Below are positions 18,977 to 35,806 of a DNA stretch of 46,068 nt, one piece after another. The notes beneath the pieces were generated by a model that made no database searches, was not told the origin of the DNA, and saw only the letters and a program-made list of their open reading frames with translations. Both the position numbers and the translations under genes were made by a program. The DNA comes from an uncultured Eubacteriales bacterium (GTDB lineage Bacteria; Bacillota; Clostridia; Oscillospirales; CAJFTT01): assembly GCA_949284545.1 (NCBI GenBank), contig CASDVX010000012.1, positions 1 to 46,068 on the forward strand, read 5' to 3'. Positions within the stretch are counted from its first letter, which is position 1. Every line of letters starts with the position of its first letter.

Positions 18977-18981
18977 TGCAA

Positions 18982-19147
18982 TGCTCAGGGCGAGGTGCGA
19001 TTCCTCACCGGCGGTAATGCGTGTTCTACGACGAGTCCGCGAGCGAAAGCAGACACGGTGCGATCCCGTGACCGACGGTAAAGTCCGGATGATAGAGCGG
19101 TTTTGTTTATTTTGCCCTGCTGCATTGTCGGCGGGGCTTTATTTTTT
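18982..19147 (+). promoter_or_regulatory. FMN riboswitch (RFN element) with terminator
   Basis: The aptamer (about 18982-19099) shows the conserved segments AGGGCGAGGTGCGATTCC, TCACCGGCGGTAATG, a GAGTCCGCGAGC segment, GTGACCGACGGTAAAGTCC and GGATGATAGAG, and the outer GCTC/GAGC helix closes it. The expression platform is a hairpin (19114-19120 with 19131-19137) followed by a T-rich tract, which fits transcription termination when FMN is bound. It controls the riboflavin transporter gene directly downstream. Confidence 0.95.
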
Positions 19148-19811: not shown

Positions 19812-19952
19812 AGGCTTATCAAGAGTGACTGAGGGTCCAGGCCCCGTGACGTCCGGCAACCTGCCTGAGGCAAGGTGCCAATTCCTGCGGCTTTCGCCGA
19901 AAGATGAGCAGATGCTGTTTCTGCCGTCGTTTCCCGCGACGGTTTATTTTTT
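19812..19952 (+). promoter_or_regulatory. SAM-I (S-box) riboswitch with terminator
   Basis: Aptamer about 19812-19910 with CTTATCAAGAG at the 5' side of P1, a GTGACGTCCGGCAACCTG core, AAGGTGCCAATTCC and GATGAG closing P1. The terminator hairpin pairs 19924-19929 with 19937-19942 and is followed by TTTATTTTTT. Binding of S-adenosylmethionine should stop transcription before metK. Confidence 0.95.
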
Positions 19953-25735: not shown

Positions 25736-25762
25736 CACGGTGTTTAATGAATATTGACGGAG

Positions 25763-27754
25763 ATGAATGAATTGCCCGCAAGAAAAAGCAGCGAATACTC
25801 TAATGACAGTATACAAACACTTAAAGGAGCGGATCGGGTTCGCAAGCGTCCCGCCGTTATTTTCGGTTCGGACGGGCTTGACGGGTGCGAGCACGCTTTT
25901 TTTGAGATCCTTTCCAATTCCCTTGACGAAGCGCGGGAAGGTTACGGTTCTAAAATCATAATCACAAAGTACCTTGACGGCTCCGTGGAAGTGGAGGATT
26001 TCGGCCGCGGGTGCCCGGTTGACTATAATTCCGCAGAAGGCCGGTATAATTGGGAGCTCGTGTTCTGCGAGATGTATTCCGGCGGCAAGTACAGGAACAA
26101 CGACGGCGGTAACTATGAGTATTCGCTCGGTCTCAACGGCTTGGGCCTTTGCGCCACACAGTATTCCTCCGCCTGGATGGATGCTGAAATATACCGCGAT
26201 GGGTTTAAGTATAACCTGCATTTCAAAAAGGGAAATATTGACGGCGAAATGAGCAAGGTTCCGGCGGACAGGAAACCTACCGGGTCGCGCATACGCTGGC
26301 TCCCGGATACGGAAGTCTTTACGGACGTGGATATACCCACAGATTACTTTTTAGATACTATCAAGCGTCAGGCCGTGGTAAACCCCGGCATAAGATTCAT
26401 TTTCCGCAACCAGAACAATCGCTCTTTTGATACCACGGAGTATATATATCCTAACGGCATTACTGATTATGTAAATGAGCTTGCCGGAGACAGTTCCATT
26501 TCATCCGTACAGACCTGGTCTACTCAGCGCAGCGGCCGTGACCGCGAGGACCTTCCGGAGTACAAGGTAAAGATTACCGCCGCGCTCTGCTTTACAAATT
26601 CGTCGCCCAGAACCGAATACTACCATAACTCCAGCTGGCTGGAATACGGCGGTTCTCCCGAACGCGCGGTAAAGAGCGCGTTCGTGTCTCAGATTGATTC
26701 GTACCTGAAGCAGAACAATAAGTACAAGAAAAACGAAAGCAAGATAATTTTTTCGGATATTGAAGACTGCCTGCTGATTGTGATAAGCAGTTTTTCTACT
26801 CAGACATCTTATGAGAACCAGACCAAAAAAGCTATAAAAAACAAATTCATTCAGGAAGCGATGACCGACTTTTTCAAGCACCAGCTTGAGGTCTACTTCA
26901 TTGAAAATCCGCTTGAGGCTGAAAAAATCTGTACACAGGTGCTTGTAAACAAGCAGTCCCGCGAGGCCGCCGACAGACAGAGACTGGCCACAAAGACCAA
27001 GCTCGCAACCACGTTGGACATATCCAACCGTATCGACAGCCTTGCCGACTGCCGTTTTCACGATCCGGATGTCAGCGAGCTGTATATCGTTGAGGGAAAA
27101 TCCGCTCTCGGTTCCTGCAAAACGGCGAGAAATGCCGATTTTCAGGCTGTGATTGCAGTCAGGGGCAAAATACTCAACTGCCTCAAAGCGGAATACGATA
27201 AAATTTTCAAGAGCGATATCATTATCAACATAATCAAGGTGCTGGGATGCGGCGTGGAAGTCACTCACAAATCCAACAAGGAACAGTCTTTTGATCTGTC
27301 AAACCTGCGCTGGAACAAGGTCATAATATGCACGGACGCCGACGTGGACGGATATCAGATACGCACCCTCATACTTGCAATGTTTTACCGTCTCACTCCT
27401 ACCCTCATAGATAAGGGGTACGTTTATATAGCCGAGTCTCCCCTTTTCGAAATAACATGCAAGGGAGAAACGTATTTCGCATACACGGAAAAGGAGAAGT
27501 CGGAGATTACGTCGGGATTCGGAGGCGCCAAATTCACCGTGCAACGCTCAAAGGGTCTCGGTGAAAACGATGCGGAAATGATGTCTCTCACAACCATGAA
27601 CCCTGCTACCCGCAGGTTAATAAAGGTGACTCCGGATGACGTCAAAGCAACGGCTGATAAATTCGATTTGCTTCTTGGGAATAATCTTGCAGGCCGCAAG
27701 GAGTACATCTTTGCAAACGGAAGCAAGTATCTCGACATGCTTGATCTGGAATGA
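25763..27754 (+). CDS. Divergent type IIA topoisomerase subunit B (ParE/GyrB-like)
   Basis: 663 residues. It has the order of GyrB/ParE: GHKL ATPase (EILSNSLDE, DFGRGCPVD, and a glycine loop YSLGLNGLGL), transducer domain, Toprim domain with YIVEGKSALGS (canonical EGDSAGG, so Asp is replaced by Lys next to the catalytic Glu), RGKILN, the Mg-binding DADVDGYQIRT, and the QRSKGLGE C-terminal motif. It is more diverged than the main gyrase subunits of Firmicutes. The start is unclear: ATG at 25763 lies right against GGAG, while TTG at 25772 has better spacing. It is cotranscribed with the A-subunit gene starting 61 bases after its stop. Most likely it is the lineage's topoisomerase IV-like enzyme (chromosome decatenation), with gyrase encoded elsewhere; that is inference. 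Confidence 0.9.
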   Translation: MNELPARKSSEYSNDSIQTLKGADRVRKRPAVIFGSDGLDGCEHAFFEILSNSLDEAREGYGSKIIITKYLDGSVEVEDFGRGCPVDYNSAEGRYNWELVFCEMYSGGKYRNNDGGNYEYSLGLNGLGLCATQYSSAWMDAEIYRDGFKYNLHFKKGNIDGEMSKVPADRKPTGSRIRWLPDTEVFTDVDIPTDYFLDTIKRQAVVNPGIRFIFRNQNNRSFDTTEYIYPNGITDYVNELAGDSSISSVQTWSTQRSGRDREDLPEYKVKITAALCFTNSSPRTEYYHNSSWLEYGGSPERAVKSAFVSQIDSYLKQNNKYKKNESKIIFSDIEDCLLIVISSFSTQTSYENQTKKAIKNKFIQEAMTDFFKHQLEVYFIENPLEAEKICTQVLVNKQSREAADRQRLATKTKLATTLDISNRIDSLADCRFHDPDVSELYIVEGKSALGSCKTARNADFQAVIAVRGKILNCLKAEYDKIFKSDIIINIIKVLGCGVEVTHKSNKEQSFDLSNLRWNKVIICTDADVDGYQIRTLILAMFYRLTPTLIDKGYVYIAESPLFEITCKGETYFAYTEKEKSEITSGFGGAKFTVQRSKGLGENDAEMMSLTTMNPATRRLIKVTPDDVKATADKFDLLLGNNLAGRKEYIFANGSKYLDMLDLE

Positions 27755-27815
27755 TCCCGGTTCTGTTCCCTGCCGCTTCCCGGCAAAGATCATCCACTGA
27801 AAGGACGACATACTG

Positions 27816-30044
27816 ATGGCTAAAAAAAAGAATACCCAGGCCGAAAAAGCGTCGCAGTTCAAGGCCTCCGGTATAGTGCAGAGTCAATCCATAATAGACA
27901 CGCTTGAAATCAACTATATGCCGTACGCAATGAGCGTCATAATTTCCAGGGCCATTCCGGAAATAGACGGCTTTAAGCCTTCGCACCGAAAGCTGCTTTA
28001 TACGATGTACAAAAACGGGCTTCTCGACGGTCCGAGAACCAAGTCGGCCAACGTGGTGGGCAACACCATGCACCTCAATCCTCACGGTGATTCCGCCATA
28101 TACGACACAATGGTGCGTCTTGCCCGCGGAAATGAAACGCTGCTTCATCCTTATGTGGACAGCAAGGGCAATTTCGGCAAGGCGTATTCGCGAGACATGG
28201 AATGCGCCGCGTCACGTTATACCGAGGTAAAGCTTGAAAAAATATGCAACGAGCTTTTCCGCGATATAAACAAGGATACGGTGGATTTTGTGCCAAACTA
28301 CGACAATTCCACCACCGAACCGTGCCTCCTCCCGGTAAGTTTCCCCACCATACTCGTAAACATGAATCTCGGTATCGCCGTAGGTATGGCAAGCAATATC
28401 TGTTCCTTTAACCTGAAAGAGGTCTGTGAGACCACCATAGCGCTCATGCGCGACCCCGGCCACAATATTCTTTCTACCCTGACAGCGCCGGACTTTTGCG
28501 GCGGAGGACAGATACTCTATAATGCCGAGGAGATGCGCAGCATCGTTGACGAGGGGCTCGGCAACATAAAGGTCCGGGCGAAATATCACATTGATGAACA
28601 GTCCGGCAGCATTATAGTGGATCAGATACCGCCCACAACCACAGCTGAAGCGATAATTGACAAGATAGTGGATCTTGTAAAGACAAACAAAATAAAGGAT
28701 ATAACGAATGTCAAAGACCTTACTGACATAAACGGACTTCGCATATCTGTGGACGTGAAACGCGGCACAGATCCCCACAAGCTCATGCTGAAGCTTTTCA
28801 AGACCACTACGCTTGAAGATACTTTCTCCTGTAACTTTAACATCCTGGTAGGCGGAAATCCGATGGTTCTGGGAGTTCGGGATATACTTTTCGAGTGGAT
28901 AGCGTTCCGTACGGAGTGCATCAAGAGACGCGTTTATTTTGACCTCACCAGGAACAAAGAAAAGCTTCACAGGCTGAAGGCCCTTGAAATCATTCTTCTT
29001 GACATAGACAAGGCCGTAAAAATCGTGCGTGATACGGATGAAGAAGAAGAAGTCGTCCCCAATCTGATGATAGGATTCGGCATAGACAGAGAGCAGGCCG
29101 AGTACGTAGCTGAAATCAAGCTCCGTCACCTTAACCGGGAATATATCTGCAAACGTACGGCTGAGATCGGTGAGCTTGAAAGCTCCATAGCCGATATGGA
29201 GGGAGTCCTTTCTTCTAAGGCCAGAGTGCGGGACATTATCATAGAAGAGCTTGAAAATGTGATAGATCAATACTCTCAGGACCGTCGCAGCGAAATCGTC
29301 TATTCTTTTGAGGTGGACGACACTGCTGATACAGAAGACGCCGTTCAGGATTATGCCGTCAACGTATTTGTAACACGCGAAGGATATCTCAAAAAAATCA
29401 CTCCCGCGTCGCTGAGGATGTATTCCGAGCAGAAACTCAAGGACGGAGACGAGATCGTAAGCGTTACGGAGACCACAAATAATACCGACGTGCTTATTTT
29501 TACGGACAAACATCAATGCTATAAAACAAAGCTGTCTGAATTTCCGGACACAAAGGCGAGTGCGATAGGCGATTATCTTCCGGCAAAAGTCGGCATGGAA
29601 CAGGGAGAAAACGTTGTTTTCGTTGCGCTTGTCAAGGATTATACCGGGTATATCCTTTTTGCCTTTGAGAACGGCAAAGCTGCGAAAATCGAGATGTCGG
29701 CCTACGCTACAAAGACTAACCGCAAAAAGCTGATAGGCGCATACTGCGACAAATTTCCCCTTGCGGCAGCGGTGTATCTGGAGGCCGATCGTGAGCTGCT
29801 TTTCTCCTCGTCTTCAGGGCGGGTGCTTCTGGTTCATACAGGAGCTATTTCCGCGAAAAATTCGAAGAGCGCACAAGGGGTAAGCTGTATGACGCTGAAA
29901 AAGGGTCAGCGCGTCGTGTCGGTGAAGCCTTATGAAGAAGGAAGTCTTCTCTCGCCTCACAGGTACCGAGTCAAATCGCTTCCCGGAGCGGGAGCTATGC
30001 TTCAGGAAAAGGATACAGTCAAGCAGAATATGCTGGACTTTTGA
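27816..30044 (+). CDS. Divergent type IIA topoisomerase subunit A (ParC/GyrA-like)
   Basis: 742 residues with the GyrA/ParC breakage-reunion domain: AMSVIISRAIPEIDGFKPSHRK at the N-terminus, the winged-helix QRDR LNPHGDSAIYD (Ser and Asp at the usual fluoroquinolone-contact positions kept), and the active-site Tyr in SRYTE (Tyr135). A coiled-coil domain follows, then a C-terminal beta-pinwheel-like region of about 230 residues. I see no GyrA box (QRRGGKG-like), so DNA wrapping and supercoiling of the gyrase type are unlikely, which fits a topoisomerase IV-like decatenase. It follows the B-subunit gene in the same unit and ends at a bidirectional terminator. Confidence 0.9.
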   Translation: MAKKKNTQAEKASQFKASGIVQSQSIIDTLEINYMPYAMSVIISRAIPEIDGFKPSHRKLLYTMYKNGLLDGPRTKSANVVGNTMHLNPHGDSAIYDTMVRLARGNETLLHPYVDSKGNFGKAYSRDMECAASRYTEVKLEKICNELFRDINKDTVDFVPNYDNSTTEPCLLPVSFPTILVNMNLGIAVGMASNICSFNLKEVCETTIALMRDPGHNILSTLTAPDFCGGGQILYNAEEMRSIVDEGLGNIKVRAKYHIDEQSGSIIVDQIPPTTTAEAIIDKIVDLVKTNKIKDITNVKDLTDINGLRISVDVKRGTDPHKLMLKLFKTTTLEDTFSCNFNILVGGNPMVLGVRDILFEWIAFRTECIKRRVYFDLTRNKEKLHRLKALEIILLDIDKAVKIVRDTDEEEEVVPNLMIGFGIDREQAEYVAEIKLRHLNREYICKRTAEIGELESSIADMEGVLSSKARVRDIIIEELENVIDQYSQDRRSEIVYSFEVDDTADTEDAVQDYAVNVFVTREGYLKKITPASLRMYSEQKLKDGDEIVSVTETTNNTDVLIFTDKHQCYKTKLSEFPDTKASAIGDYLPAKVGMEQGENVVFVALVKDYTGYILFAFENGKAAKIEMSAYATKTNRKKLIGAYCDKFPLAAAVYLEADRELLFSSSSGRVLLVHTGAISAKNSKSAQGVSCMTLKKGQRVVSVKPYEEGSLLSPHRYRVKSLPGAGAMLQEKDTVKQNMLDF

Positions 30045-30844: not shown

Positions 30845-30855
30845 AATTTCATTTT

Positions 30856-31010
30856 TCCCTGCTTAGTGCGTGATTTTGCATTAAAAAACCTACACCTATT
30901 TAAGGGAATCCTAATCTCCTACGGCGGATTGCAGACCTCCCGCTTTACAGCGGACGAAGGGAGCGTGAACCCGAGGGCGGATACCCACCTGCACATACGC
31001 AGGGATTTTT
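30856..31010 (+). ncRNA. Structured noncoding RNA, 6S RNA candidate
   Basis: The stretch is not coding and folds into a long rod. TCCCTGC (30856-30862) pairs with GCAGGGA (30999-31005); GTGC (30866-30869) with GCAC (30991-30994); GGGAATCC (30904-30911) with GGATACCC (30979-30986, one mismatch); and CTCCC (30937-30941) with GGGAG (30959-30963) at the tip around a CCGC/GCGG hairpin. The gap between the second and fourth stems leaves an internal bubble, the hallmark of 6S RNA, which mimics an open promoter and binds sigma-A RNA polymerase. A T run follows the closing stem. Length about 155 nucleotides, slightly short for 6S. The start may be set by the TAAAAT at 30842-30847. Identity as 6S is likely but not proven from sequence alone. 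Confidence 0.55.
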
Positions 31011-31062
31011 ATTGCGGAACACGGCTCGGCGGGGATATTTTGTTTATAACTTCTGGCTTTGT

Positions 31063-32437: not shown

Positions 32438-32503
32438 AAAAACGGCAGGGAGGCTCCTGCTTTCGCGGAAACCTCCCTTTTTACGTCCATATCGGCCGTT
32501 TTT
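32438..32503. terminator. Terminator between the MutS-like pair and the lipoprotein gene
   Basis: An inner GGGAGG/CCTCCC stem (32448-32453 with 32472-32477) and an outer AAAAACGG/CCGTTTTT stem (32438-32445 with 32496-32503), each with T-rich tails; it works in both directions. Confidence 0.7.
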
Positions 32504-32521: not shown

Positions 32522-34111
32522 TTATTTCCTTGCCGCCGCAAACGCCTGTTCAAATTCCTTGGCAAAGACTTTCTGCTGGGGTACACCGGGAATGATTTTA
32601 TACGTACGCTTAATACTTCCGTCCTCATTCTCGATACAGTCGCAAATGAAGTTCACCGCTCTGCCATTGATGCCTTCGGCCGCGAGATTCGCATTAAACG
32701 TATCCGTAGTGCTCGCATACTCAAACAGGTGCGACACGAATATAACGCGGCAACCCAAAACCGCAAACGCTTTGGTGATATCCACGGCGATGACGGAACC
32801 TTCCTTTGTCGTCGTGGTGGCAAATGAGTCGTTGAGCAGTACCAGCGAATCCCCCGTGATAACCTCAAACGCTTCACGCAGACGTGCAAGTTCTTCCGCA
32901 AGTTTGCCGTACTTCATATCCTTGTCTTCCTCTTCGGGGAAGTGCGTGTAGACAATGTCGGATATGGACGAGTGGAAGCTCTCCGCCGGGACCGGGGCGC
33001 CGCACTGCATGAGCACCTGAGCAATACCCGCCGCACGCAGGAAGGTAGTTTTTCCTCCCTGGTTGGGGCCGGTGATTATCAGCATATCTCCCTCGTTCAT
33101 CACAAGGTCGTTGAACACGACATCATCCTCGGTCATACGCTCCTTCGGCTTGTTGAGAGCGAATACCATCGACATATCATAAAGTCCCTTGGCGGTCATT
33201 ATGCGCTTATCTTCAGATACCGTGGGCATACATACAGGCATACCCAGCTCGGTTATCTTTTCGATTATTTTGACCATACCCATGTAGAAGGATACTTCCG
33301 TGCGCAGATCACCGAAGAAACGGGAAATTCCTGCGGACATGGCTGCAAGGATGCTCTTTATATGGAGAAGCACTTCTTTTTTGATATTTTCAAGGTCATT
33401 GGTAATACCGTCGGGTATATTCTTTATGAGGATAAAGTCGTTGGCATCGCCCTTGTCTTTGGAAAACAGCTTGGAAAAAAGGCCTTCGGGCATTATCTGC
33501 TTCTCGGATATGTCGCACAGGGTGGCGACAGACGCCTTGAGGCCCGACCCGAATTCTACCCACACCTTCAGCGCTTTGCTGTTGTAGAGCGAATCCGCAA
33601 TGCCGTTCACTGTCTCGCGCAGCTCCTTGTATTCTCCGCTGTCCACATAGGCTATCACTTTTTCGGTGAGTGATATCAGGCCCTCAGACTCGAAAGTGTT
33701 GCGGTTGCTTCTGAGCTGCTCGCAAAGTTCGTTGAGAAGGTCAAAATACTGATTGGTAACGTTTACCGCTTCCTTGACCTGCTCAAACACGTTAATCTTG
33801 CTCTGCGTGCCAACGCCTCTGCGTGACGTATCGATGTTGGTGGTCTTATTGACGGTGCGGAAAATTTCCTCCACAAATGTGTCCTTCAGACGCTCAAAGT
33901 CCTTATATACTCCCTGGCGATAATATATCGTTCTGGAATCCAGAGCGGGAGTAGTGATGTAACGCGCCACTGTGTCACGGATATAGCCCTGCCTCGTGAT
34001 CCTGTCCATTATTCTGTCCAGATTAAGGTCACGCACAAGCGTCTGAGAAAACGGCATCGGGTTCACGTTGGCCTCGACGCCCGCCGGATTCATGAGATTC
34101 GGTTCAAACAT
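32522..34111 (-). CDS. MutS-like ATPase, second of a tandem pair
   Basis: 529 residues. The C-terminal half is a MutS domain V ATPase with Walker A GPNQGGKTT (about residue 349), signature region, Walker B-like LVLLNDSFATTTT (about 427) and VIFVSHLFE. The N-terminal half (RDLNLDRIMDRITRQG) looks like the MutS lever/clamp helices; domains I and II for mismatch recognition and the connector are absent. In MutS the Walker B reads DE; here it is Asn-Asp. The ATG overlaps the TAA of the upstream paralogue (TAATG) and the Shine-Dalgarno sits in that gene's end, so the two proteins are produced together and probably pair. Function unknown: mismatch repair as such is unlikely. Confidence 0.88.
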   Translation of the reverse strand: MFEPNLMNPAGVEANVNPMPFSQTLVRDLNLDRIMDRITRQGYIRDTVARYITTPALDSRTIYYRQGVYKDFERLKDTFVEEIFRTVNKTTNIDTSRRGVGTQSKINVFEQVKEAVNVTNQYFDLLNELCEQLRSNRNTFESEGLISLTEKVIAYVDSGEYKELRETVNGIADSLYNSKALKVWVEFGSGLKASVATLCDISEKQIMPEGLFSKLFSKDKGDANDFILIKNIPDGITNDLENIKKEVLLHIKSILAAMSAGISRFFGDLRTEVSFYMGMVKIIEKITELGMPVCMPTVSEDKRIMTAKGLYDMSMVFALNKPKERMTEDDVVFNDLVMNEGDMLIITGPNQGGKTTFLRAAGIAQVLMQCGAPVPAESFHSSISDIVYTHFPEEEDKDMKYGKLAEELARLREAFEVITGDSLVLLNDSFATTTTKEGSVIAVDITKAFAVLGCRVIFVSHLFEYASTTDTFNANLAAEGINGRAVNFICDCIENEDGSIKRTYKIIPGVPQQKVFAKEFEQAFAAARK

Positions 34112-35745
34112 TATTTGCTCGCCTCCTTGACGGGAAGAATTTTTCTCTCTTGCAGAAGCTTCTGAATCTGTCCGTAGGTAACTCCGGTACGCTTGGCGAT
34201 ATCCATTGCGAACACGAGCCCGGTCGAAGTTTTACGGATTATCTTGTAGGTTCTGCGGCCGGATCCGTCTTCGGTTTCCACCGCTTCCGCCATGAAGCTT
34301 ACCACGCCTTCAAAGTTGGGATCCTCGTCAAGCTCCTGGCTGAGCTCGTAAAGGTGGGTGACAAACAGAACCTTACAGCCTATGTCGAGAAGTATCTTTA
34401 TGAGCTGCCTTCCCAGCTCCGCACCGTCCGCGCGGCGGGCAGATGCAAACGATTCATTGAAGATTATGAAGCTGTCCTTGGTAACGCCTCTGAGCATCTC
34501 AGCAATCCTGATGATCTCCTCGCTGAGACGACCCTTATTTCCTCCCACGTTCTCACGCTCCGGGAACTGTGAAAGCATCTTGTCCATGATCATGAACGAG
34601 GCTTCCCTTGCCGCCACAAGGCATCCCACCTGGGCAAGGACCTGGAAAAGTCCCACAGACCTTGCAAACGTGGTCTTACCTCCCTGGTTAGGACCTGTAA
34701 TAATGAGGACGCGTTCATCCTGCGTAATCTGGAAATCATTGCCTACGACTCTGGTGGAATTGCCTCCCTGCTCAAATACCTCTTGGGCAAGGCCCAGGTC
34801 ATACACGCCGAAAACCCGTTCTTCGTTGTTTTGGGAAATGCGGGGCACACAGAACACAAACCCGCGCTCTTCAAGCTGGCGTACAAAAGAAATATACGCC
34901 AGGTAAAACTCGAACTCGTACTCGGTTATCCCGTCTTCGGTGAACGGGTAATCCGCATATTTTACCCTGAAGTCGGCAAGTCTTGAAAAAACCTCGGGTT
35001 TCTGCTTCTTAAAGCAGTCTATAAGCTGCACCTCAAGCGCCGTGGTGGGAACGCTGTTGTAGATGGAGCAATTCGTCTTCTGCACGTTTCTGAAGAGTAT
35101 ATCAGCGTTTTTGACCAGCTTGCCGGTTATTGAATCGTCCACATTAAAGGTTCCGCGGACAATCCCCAGACTGCTCGGCCCGCTGTTGAGAGCCATAAAG
35201 AAGCTGCTCGCATCTTTAAGGTCAGCCTGGAGCTTCAGCGCGGTTTCGGACATTTCCTTGAATGAATCAGAACTGACCACGTCCTCAAAATGCTTGCGCA
35301 TCCTTATAAGTGCTCTGCTCTTGATGTCCAGATCCTTGGTAGAATCGTAAAAGAAATTCGCCGTGGATATGTACATACAGGCCGCCTCGAGCACACGCGC
35401 GGCGTCCTGCTCGGGATTCCTGTTCTCCAGCGACTTTGCATAGGTGTCTCTGATTTCAGGTATGGCCTTGCTGAACTCGGAAAGAATCTCAAAAAGCGCC
35501 GGAATCGTCCGAATATCCTGCATCACCTCAAGTCTGAAGGCAATAGGATCTGCGTCCCTAAGAGGATAGTAAAACAACCTCTCCAATTTGTCCTTGTCCT
35601 TCTTCGTACGGGCAAAGACGGCGTTAACGATCCTCTCCGCATTTAAGTCCCTTTTTATCGAACCCGAAAACTCCTGACCTACGCGCTCCTCCCATTCGGT
35701 GCGGTACTTGTCGTCAGGCCAGATAATGCTGAGATAGTCTGCCAT
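34111..35745 (-). CDS. MutS-like ATPase, first of a tandem pair
   Basis: 544 residues from the ATG at 35745 with GGAGGAAGG upstream; the frame is open 14 codons further but lacks a better site. The layout is the same as its neighbour: N-terminal IKRDLNAERIVNAVF, helical core, then the ATPase with GPNQGGKTT (about residue 360), Walker B-like FIIFNESFASARRADG (about 440) and VLFVTHLYEL. Both family members keep RDLN near the start and an Asn at the Walker B Asp, pointing to an old duplication rather than a recent one. No Smr domain is present, unlike MutS2. A consensus promoter is placed upstream, so the two genes form their own unit. Confidence 0.88.
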   Translation of the reverse strand: MADYLSIIWPDDKYRTEWEERVGQEFSGSIKRDLNAERIVNAVFARTKKDKDKLERLFYYPLRDADPIAFRLEVMQDIRTIPALFEILSEFSKAIPEIRDTYAKSLENRNPEQDAARVLEAACMYISTANFFYDSTKDLDIKSRALIRMRKHFEDVVSSDSFKEMSETALKLQADLKDASSFFMALNSGPSSLGIVRGTFNVDDSITGKLVKNADILFRNVQKTNCSIYNSVPTTALEVQLIDCFKKQKPEVFSRLADFRVKYADYPFTEDGITEYEFEFYLAYISFVRQLEERGFVFCVPRISQNNEERVFGVYDLGLAQEVFEQGGNSTRVVGNDFQITQDERVLIITGPNQGGKTTFARSVGLFQVLAQVGCLVAAREASFMIMDKMLSQFPERENVGGNKGRLSEEIIRIAEMLRGVTKDSFIIFNESFASARRADGAELGRQLIKILLDIGCKVLFVTHLYELSQELDEDPNFEGVVSFMAEAVETEDGSGRRTYKIIRKTSTGLVFAMDIAKRTGVTYGQIQKLLQERKILPVKEASK

Positions 35746-35777
35746 TAACCTTCCTCCTATCTGTTTTACATACATAG

Positions 35778-35806
35778 ATAATACCATTAAAAGCGCCTGT
35801 TTTCAA
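35778..35806 (-). promoter_or_regulatory. Promoter of the MutS-like pair
   Basis: Minus strand: TTGAAA (35801-35806), 17-base spacer, TATTAT (35778-35783). Confidence 0.75.

Follow-up and report, generated by a model that had tools for sequence, protein, structure and literature searches.

Two adjacent genes of an uncultured Eubacteriales bacterium encode the subunits, A and B, of what we read, at roughly even probability, as an obligate heterodimeric ATP clamp acting outside mismatch repair. Both lie in the window, i.e., the whole 46,068-nt stretch of DNA that was analysed (contig CASDVX010000012.1, positions 1 to 46,068). The proteins belong to an ancient family of paired MutS-core ATPases, bacterial and archaeal, whose largest branch, to judge from its gene context, is part of fluoride defence, and within which the window pair is an early branch without fluoride control.

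Both genes are on the minus strand. Gene B (34111..35745) encodes MutS-core ATPase subunit B of 544 aa, inside a longest open reading frame of 34111-35787; its start is placed at 35745, where an AGGAGG ribosome site precedes the codon and where the orthologue in Candidatus Tabaqchalia begins at the same residue. Gene A (32522..34111) encodes subunit A of 529 aa. The end of B and the start of A overlap in a TAATG (34109..34113, minus strand), and an AAGGAGG stands just 5' of A at 34122-34128 (minus strand). The two proteins share 28% identity across 526 aligned columns (E=9e-47) and are hence paralogues. The same genome encodes an ordinary MutS1 and an ordinary MutS2 (the latter G000:C50), both with Asp-Glu in Walker B, so the A-B pair is additional to the standard set.

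A Pfam search of A and B gives MutS_V only, and both proteins are acidic, with a pI of about 5. AlphaFold models, built from 58 A-type and 54 B-type sequences, reach a mean pLDDT of 86.4 for A and 84.2 for B, and the predicted fold of each is a normal MutS core. Compared with MutS/MSH structures, the best match of the A model has Z 30.4 with an rmsd of 4.8 over 405 residues, and that of the B model Z 31.3 with an rmsd of 6.7 over 454 residues. In both models the aligned stretch begins with domain III (E. coli residue ~258) and extends through the whole ATPase. Because the match covers domains III-V only, the mismatch-recognition and connector domains I and II, found neither by Pfam nor in the model alignment, are absent, as is a C-terminal Smr domain, which Pfam does not detect and for which the ATPase lies too near the C-terminus in proteins of 529 and 544 aa. 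In place of the MutS DNA clamp the models show only a short hairpin with a loop of low confidence (A ~182-232, B ~183-227), a region reduced to ~50 residues with pLDDT ~31-69. The first-pass annotation had described overlapping paralogous frames with neither mismatch-recognition nor Smr domains, and this description holds.

To compare active sites we used 76 pairs, which come from the best 80 loci of at least 588 relatives, together with 29 other family members and 8 outgroup proteins (MutS1, MutS2, KamC and membrane-type). The Walker B position that binds Mg is Asn in 75 of 76 A proteins and in all 76 B proteins (151 of 152 pair proteins), and in 28 of the 29 other members, whereas in the outgroup it is Asp in 8 of 8 proteins and Asn in none. 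The Walker B Asn is thus not due to chance. In the window the residues concerned are N430-E431 of B, numbered from the start at 35745 (34453..34458, minus strand), and N427-D428 of A (32828..32833, minus strand). The earlier reading, NES or NDS in place of Asp-Glu, can thus be refined: the change common to both proteins is only that of the first residue, Asn for the Mg-binding Asp, whereas the catalytic Glu stays in B and has become Asp in A. Across the family this Glu is retained nearly throughout; Asp is found in window A and its Tabaqchalia orthologue. The sole A protein of the 76 with a Walker B Asp (LLDESF) is at L135, 7688-9265, in a locus that has a riboswitch.

Where 8 of 8 outgroup proteins have the MutS signature Ser, the family, including the window pair, has a Gly and directly after it a Lys or Arg. 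In the Thr-His motif all A proteins retain the His, while 60 of 76 B proteins have Phe there; window B has kept the His. The two ATP sites differ because Glu has become Asp in A of the window lineage and His is lost from B of the fluoride branch, so that the degraded site varies by lineage: site A in the former, site B in the latter. Walker A reads GPNQGGKTT in both window proteins (34669..34695 in B and 33044..33070 in A, both minus strand), an identity that the first reading had picked out. The Gln of this motif is common in the family without being invariant, outgroup proteins having Met, Thr or Ala, and by this comparison the variant seems less special than the Walker B Asn. The Walker A Lys and Thr/Ser are kept in nearly all members. 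The same Asp-to-Asn change is known from E. coli MutS D693N (PDB 3k0s, among the structural matches listed for the models), there as an engineered point mutant, while it is the natural state of the whole A/B family; on this precedent, slow hydrolysis by the A-B pair is plausible.

MutS1 and MSH2-MSH6 have the fold of domains III-V in common with the pair, and MSH2-MSH6 joins two different subunits whose ATP sites are composite, as we suppose for A and B. The pair differs from MutS1/MSH in lacking domains I and II, in its reduced clamp, in Asn for the Walker B Asp and in Gly-Lys/Arg for the signature Ser. MutS2 also begins at domain III and has MutS_V, but the pair has no Smr domain, consists of two unlike subunits and has the Walker B Asn. 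KamC (NCBIfam NF052383), which NCBIfam names an aminomutase reactivase, is a MutS core without mismatch domains and of similar length to A and B; unlike A and B with their Asn, the true KamC in L072 reads Asp-Glu at Walker B. Among NCBIfam profiles that of KamC scores best with A (72.6 bits; B 63.0 bits), but both scores are so far from the cut-off of 300 bits, and from the 583.6 bits of the true KamC in G135, that membership was rejected. Membership in a defence system was likewise rejected, PADLOC giving weak P-loop matches only. No pair-specific model was found in Pfam or NCBIfam: four fluoride-branch proteins and both window proteins match only the general MutS1, MutS2 and KamC models, far below cut-off.

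Scanning genome contigs with an alignment as query gave at least 591 matches, at least 588 of them relatives. The best 80 loci, which were analysed further, span many bacterial phyla and include two archaeal MAGs. B is followed by A in tandem in 76 of the 80; each of the remaining 4 showed only a single family gene, close to the end of a contig. Among the 76 tandems, 51 have an ATGA-type overlap and 69 a spacing of -60 to +40 nt. The window pair has the same arrangement, B then A, adjacent, overlapping and on the same strand. In a tree made by a quick method, with no mixture model and some long branches, A and B form separate clades with matching sub-branches (35 rows for A and 37 for B, SH-aLRT 98 each), one window protein falling in each; there the window proteins sit beside Candidatus Tabaqchalia, near the pair of Tepidanaerobacter/G223. 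The distances within the two clades are correlated with r=0.97, a value reached in 0 of 1000 permutations, none of which exceeded 0.28. One Clostridia genome has two family units fused in a single open frame of 1116 aa (L061, 8037-11384, G050:C55). Given the tandems, the paired clades, the distance correlation and the fusion, a heterodimer is the natural reading, and on these sequence grounds A and B very likely form one. The proposal that the two are a specialised pair, with paired sister clades and conservation as a pair as its checks, is thus upheld by the clades, by the tandems in the best 80 of at least 588 relatives and by the single polypeptide of one genome.

The wider family has other forms. 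Some genomes carry apparently single genes, for example at L069 (9310-10872, G059:C22), between rimM-like and trmD-like genes as judged by sequence, and another pair, at L067, is near ftsY-like and ffh-like genes. In the tandems of L085 (5291-8397, G197) and L086 (5283-8283, G129) the first partner is decayed, with GPIGSGKT or GQIGTGKT at Walker A and LVLWPDS in the Walker B region, while the second has NEL; the first partner is likely a pseudo-ATPase, to go by these motifs.

The fluoride link of the largest branch comes from two kinds of observation, riboswitches and neighbours. In Thermoanaerobacter and others, Rfam places fluoride riboswitches immediately 5' of the pair. By a riboswitch model built from such Rfam matches, and trained on some of the loci counted here, a fluoride riboswitch lies at most 400 nt upstream of B in 25 of the best 80 loci of at least 588 relatives, and elsewhere in the locus in 13 further ones. 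Ten of the direct upstream cases score above Rfam's own threshold (L101, L102, L110, L112, L117, L119, L146, L152, L153 and L158). Pairs that have RF01734 directly upstream group with the window pair in both clades. Among the neighbours in the same best 80 of at least 588, we found enolase and an MFS transporter (by sequence) in 14 loci each, an Na/H exchanger in 8, CrcB in 7, DUF190, phosphoglycerate mutase and a dynamin-like protein in 6 each, Usp in 5 and pyrophosphatase in 4; enolase and pyrophosphatase are known fluoride targets (PMC11139923). We recognised no DNA-repair gene among the neighbours that recur in these 80 loci. Plasmids of Klebsiella, Enterobacter, Burkholderia and Rhodococcus have the pair in the same fluoride-defence gene sets, annotated as 'DNA mismatch repair protein MutS' or as hypothetical. 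The islands on the Klebsiella and Enterobacter plasmids resemble that of Enterobacter cloacae FRM, an enolase island that confers high fluoride resistance and whose tabulated genes do not include the pair (PMC5533749).

Two further observations concern these neighbourhoods. A dynamin-like GTPase is close to the pair in the fluoride gene sets of L108, L126, L129, L149, L154, L162 and L175. Behind the G223 pair there is a gene run (L044, 12653-18781) that is Ech-type hydrogenase-like by sequence and size, and hydrogenase-like genes are also found near fluoride-branch pairs.

An association of this kind was known already: Weinberg 2010 reported that the crcB motif precedes 'mutS', and suggested from 'mutS' a link to DNA damage (PMC2864571). 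Judged by their position, the RF01734-associated 'mutS' genes of that report are probably of the same A/B family. The window pair differs from them in having neither riboswitch nor fluoride genes nearby, in keeping the His in B and in having Asp for Glu in A. RF01734 was found neither in the window at E<=1 (Rfam) nor in the whole genome, nor with our own riboswitch model, and neither CrcB/Fluc (PF02537) nor CLC (PF00654) was found in the genome, the assembly of which is ~94% complete. A promoter-like TTGAAA-17-TATTAT with a TG before the second hexamer (35778..35806, minus strand) lies ~33 nt before the start codon of B; if used, it leaves no room for a 60-nt aptamer. It is a consensus match only, and the number of such matches in the region overall is not above chance expectation. 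A terminator-like hairpin followed by CGTTTTT, ~60 nt 3' of A (32445..32460, minus strand), is also a consensus match only. From its sequence signals, the pair is probably expressed from its own promoter.

The same division runs through the family. None of the 16 pairs with His in B has a riboswitch in the locus, compared with 37 of the 60 others (Fisher p ~5e-6, kinship ignored; best 80 of at least 588 relatives). The 16 come from Tabaqchalia, Tepidanaerobacter, Paenibacillaceae, Lachnospiraceae and relatives. Given this contrast, a fluoride role for the family as a whole was rejected. Only the branch in which B lost the His has the riboswitch, and the tree is compatible with either its gain or its loss. 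In the early-branching and single-gene groups no conserved neighbours were found; synteny with DUF436 and an M24 peptidase is common to the window and one relative only. Because the window pair has no fluoride link, its role is extrapolated from its cousins, to which it is only ~25-30% identical.

The window does contain other regulatory RNAs, all on the plus strand: an FMN riboswitch at 18977-19104 (101.8 bits) and a SAM riboswitch at 19813-19910 (77.5 bits), both far above threshold, and a 6S RNA at 30853-31039 (65 bits), 3' of the gyrase/topoisomerase IV subunit genes at 25754-30044. The short open reading frames called at the 6S RNA site are probably not genes.

The model that we favour is as follows. 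A and B, each with MutS core, lever and ATPase according to sequence and structure models, would be subunits of an obligate heterodimer and would bind ATP at composite sites in which a natural Asn stands for the Mg-binding Asp. This Asn would make the ATPase a slow, Mg-tuned switch, the main output of which may be ATP-dependent opening and closing of the clamp. The clamp would grip and remodel a protein or ribonucleoprotein client without reading mismatches. MutS2, which acts on collided ribosomes, offers, with the KamC reactivase, an analogy for client remodelling. Counting against the model, MutS1, the best studied of the relatives outside the family, works on DNA; the reduced clamp, in a region of low model confidence, may still bind DNA; and some genomes have apparently single genes of the wider family. 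In the largest branch the genes are placed under a fluoride riboswitch; the window pair is the same machine in an early branch, free of fluoride control.

A more conventional possibility is that the pair is a stripped MutS heterodimer, similar to MSH4-MSH5, which encircles DNA or branched intermediates, controls recombination or repair and is made under DNA-damaging stress. The fold shared with domains III-V of MutS/MSH, the heterodimerisation typical of MSH proteins and the DNA-damage link proposed in the 2010 riboswitch report (PMC2864571) all fit this account. However, it has to accommodate the absence of domains I and II, a clamp of ~50 poorly predicted residues, the low pI of both window proteins, and recurrent neighbours that are enolase, pyrophosphatase, exporters and antiporters, with no DNA-repair gene recognised in the best 80 of at least 588 relatives; we consider it somewhat unlikely. 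Together, the lack of mismatch domains, the reduction of the clamp, the acidity of both proteins and the gene neighbourhood also speak against mismatch repair. A role in recombination control, which had been suggested for the window pair from its sequence, finds no support, as the largest branch is in fluoride-defence gene sets and not among DNA-repair genes.

We can also ask whether the client is a poisoned enzyme. In its broad form, which we put forward only tentatively and think rather unlikely, the family would be a separate class of obligate heterodimeric MutS ATPases with a natural Walker B Asn, recruited across bacteria and archaea to fluoride defence, where ATP would drive the release of Mg-fluoride-poisoned enzymes or complexes, the window pair being the fluoride-free form. 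A narrower version has the clamp prying open Mg-fluoride-poisoned metalloenzymes, specifically enolase and pyrophosphatase, as KamC is said to do for lysine 5,6-aminomutase, with the window copy serving another metalloenzyme. That KamC, named a reactivase, is the top NCBIfam profile for A and that the pair is encoded near both fluoride targets (PMC11139923) speak for such an activity, but that score falls far short of the cut-off for KamC, the pair often occurs with no fluoride target adjacent and in genomes without a fluoride riboswitch, and E. cloacae FRM is highly resistant with an enolase island that lacks the pair among its tabulated genes (PMC5533749), which leaves this version improbable. 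Least probable is a sensor of nucleotide or Mg-fluoride with little hydrolysis, in which ATP or ADP-Mg-F would occupy the Asn site and the heterodimer would signal through its shape alone: the near-invariant Asn at the Mg-binding residue and the further site loss in one subunit (Glu to Asp in A of the window lineage, His to Phe in B of the fluoride branch) would suit it, but the Walker A Lys and Thr/Ser and the catalytic Glu, kept in nearly all members, argue for retained turnover.

In the literature searched, which leaves most subscription journals outside, we found no description of the obligate pair, the near-invariant Asn or the fluoride-free early branch, and no paper with fluoride, MutS and riboswitch together as whole words. 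Returning to the heterodimeric clamp outside mismatch repair, its consequences are partly practical: many such genes, including those on the Klebsiella and Enterobacter plasmids, are annotated as DNA mismatch repair proteins despite the missing mismatch-reading part, and since that part is missing and the largest branch is fluoride-induced, this usual label is probably wrong. The old puzzle of a fluoride sensor that controls 'mutS' becomes directly testable, and the family as a whole is a natural experiment, a MutS-type ATPase with Asn for the Mg-binding Asp in both subunits.
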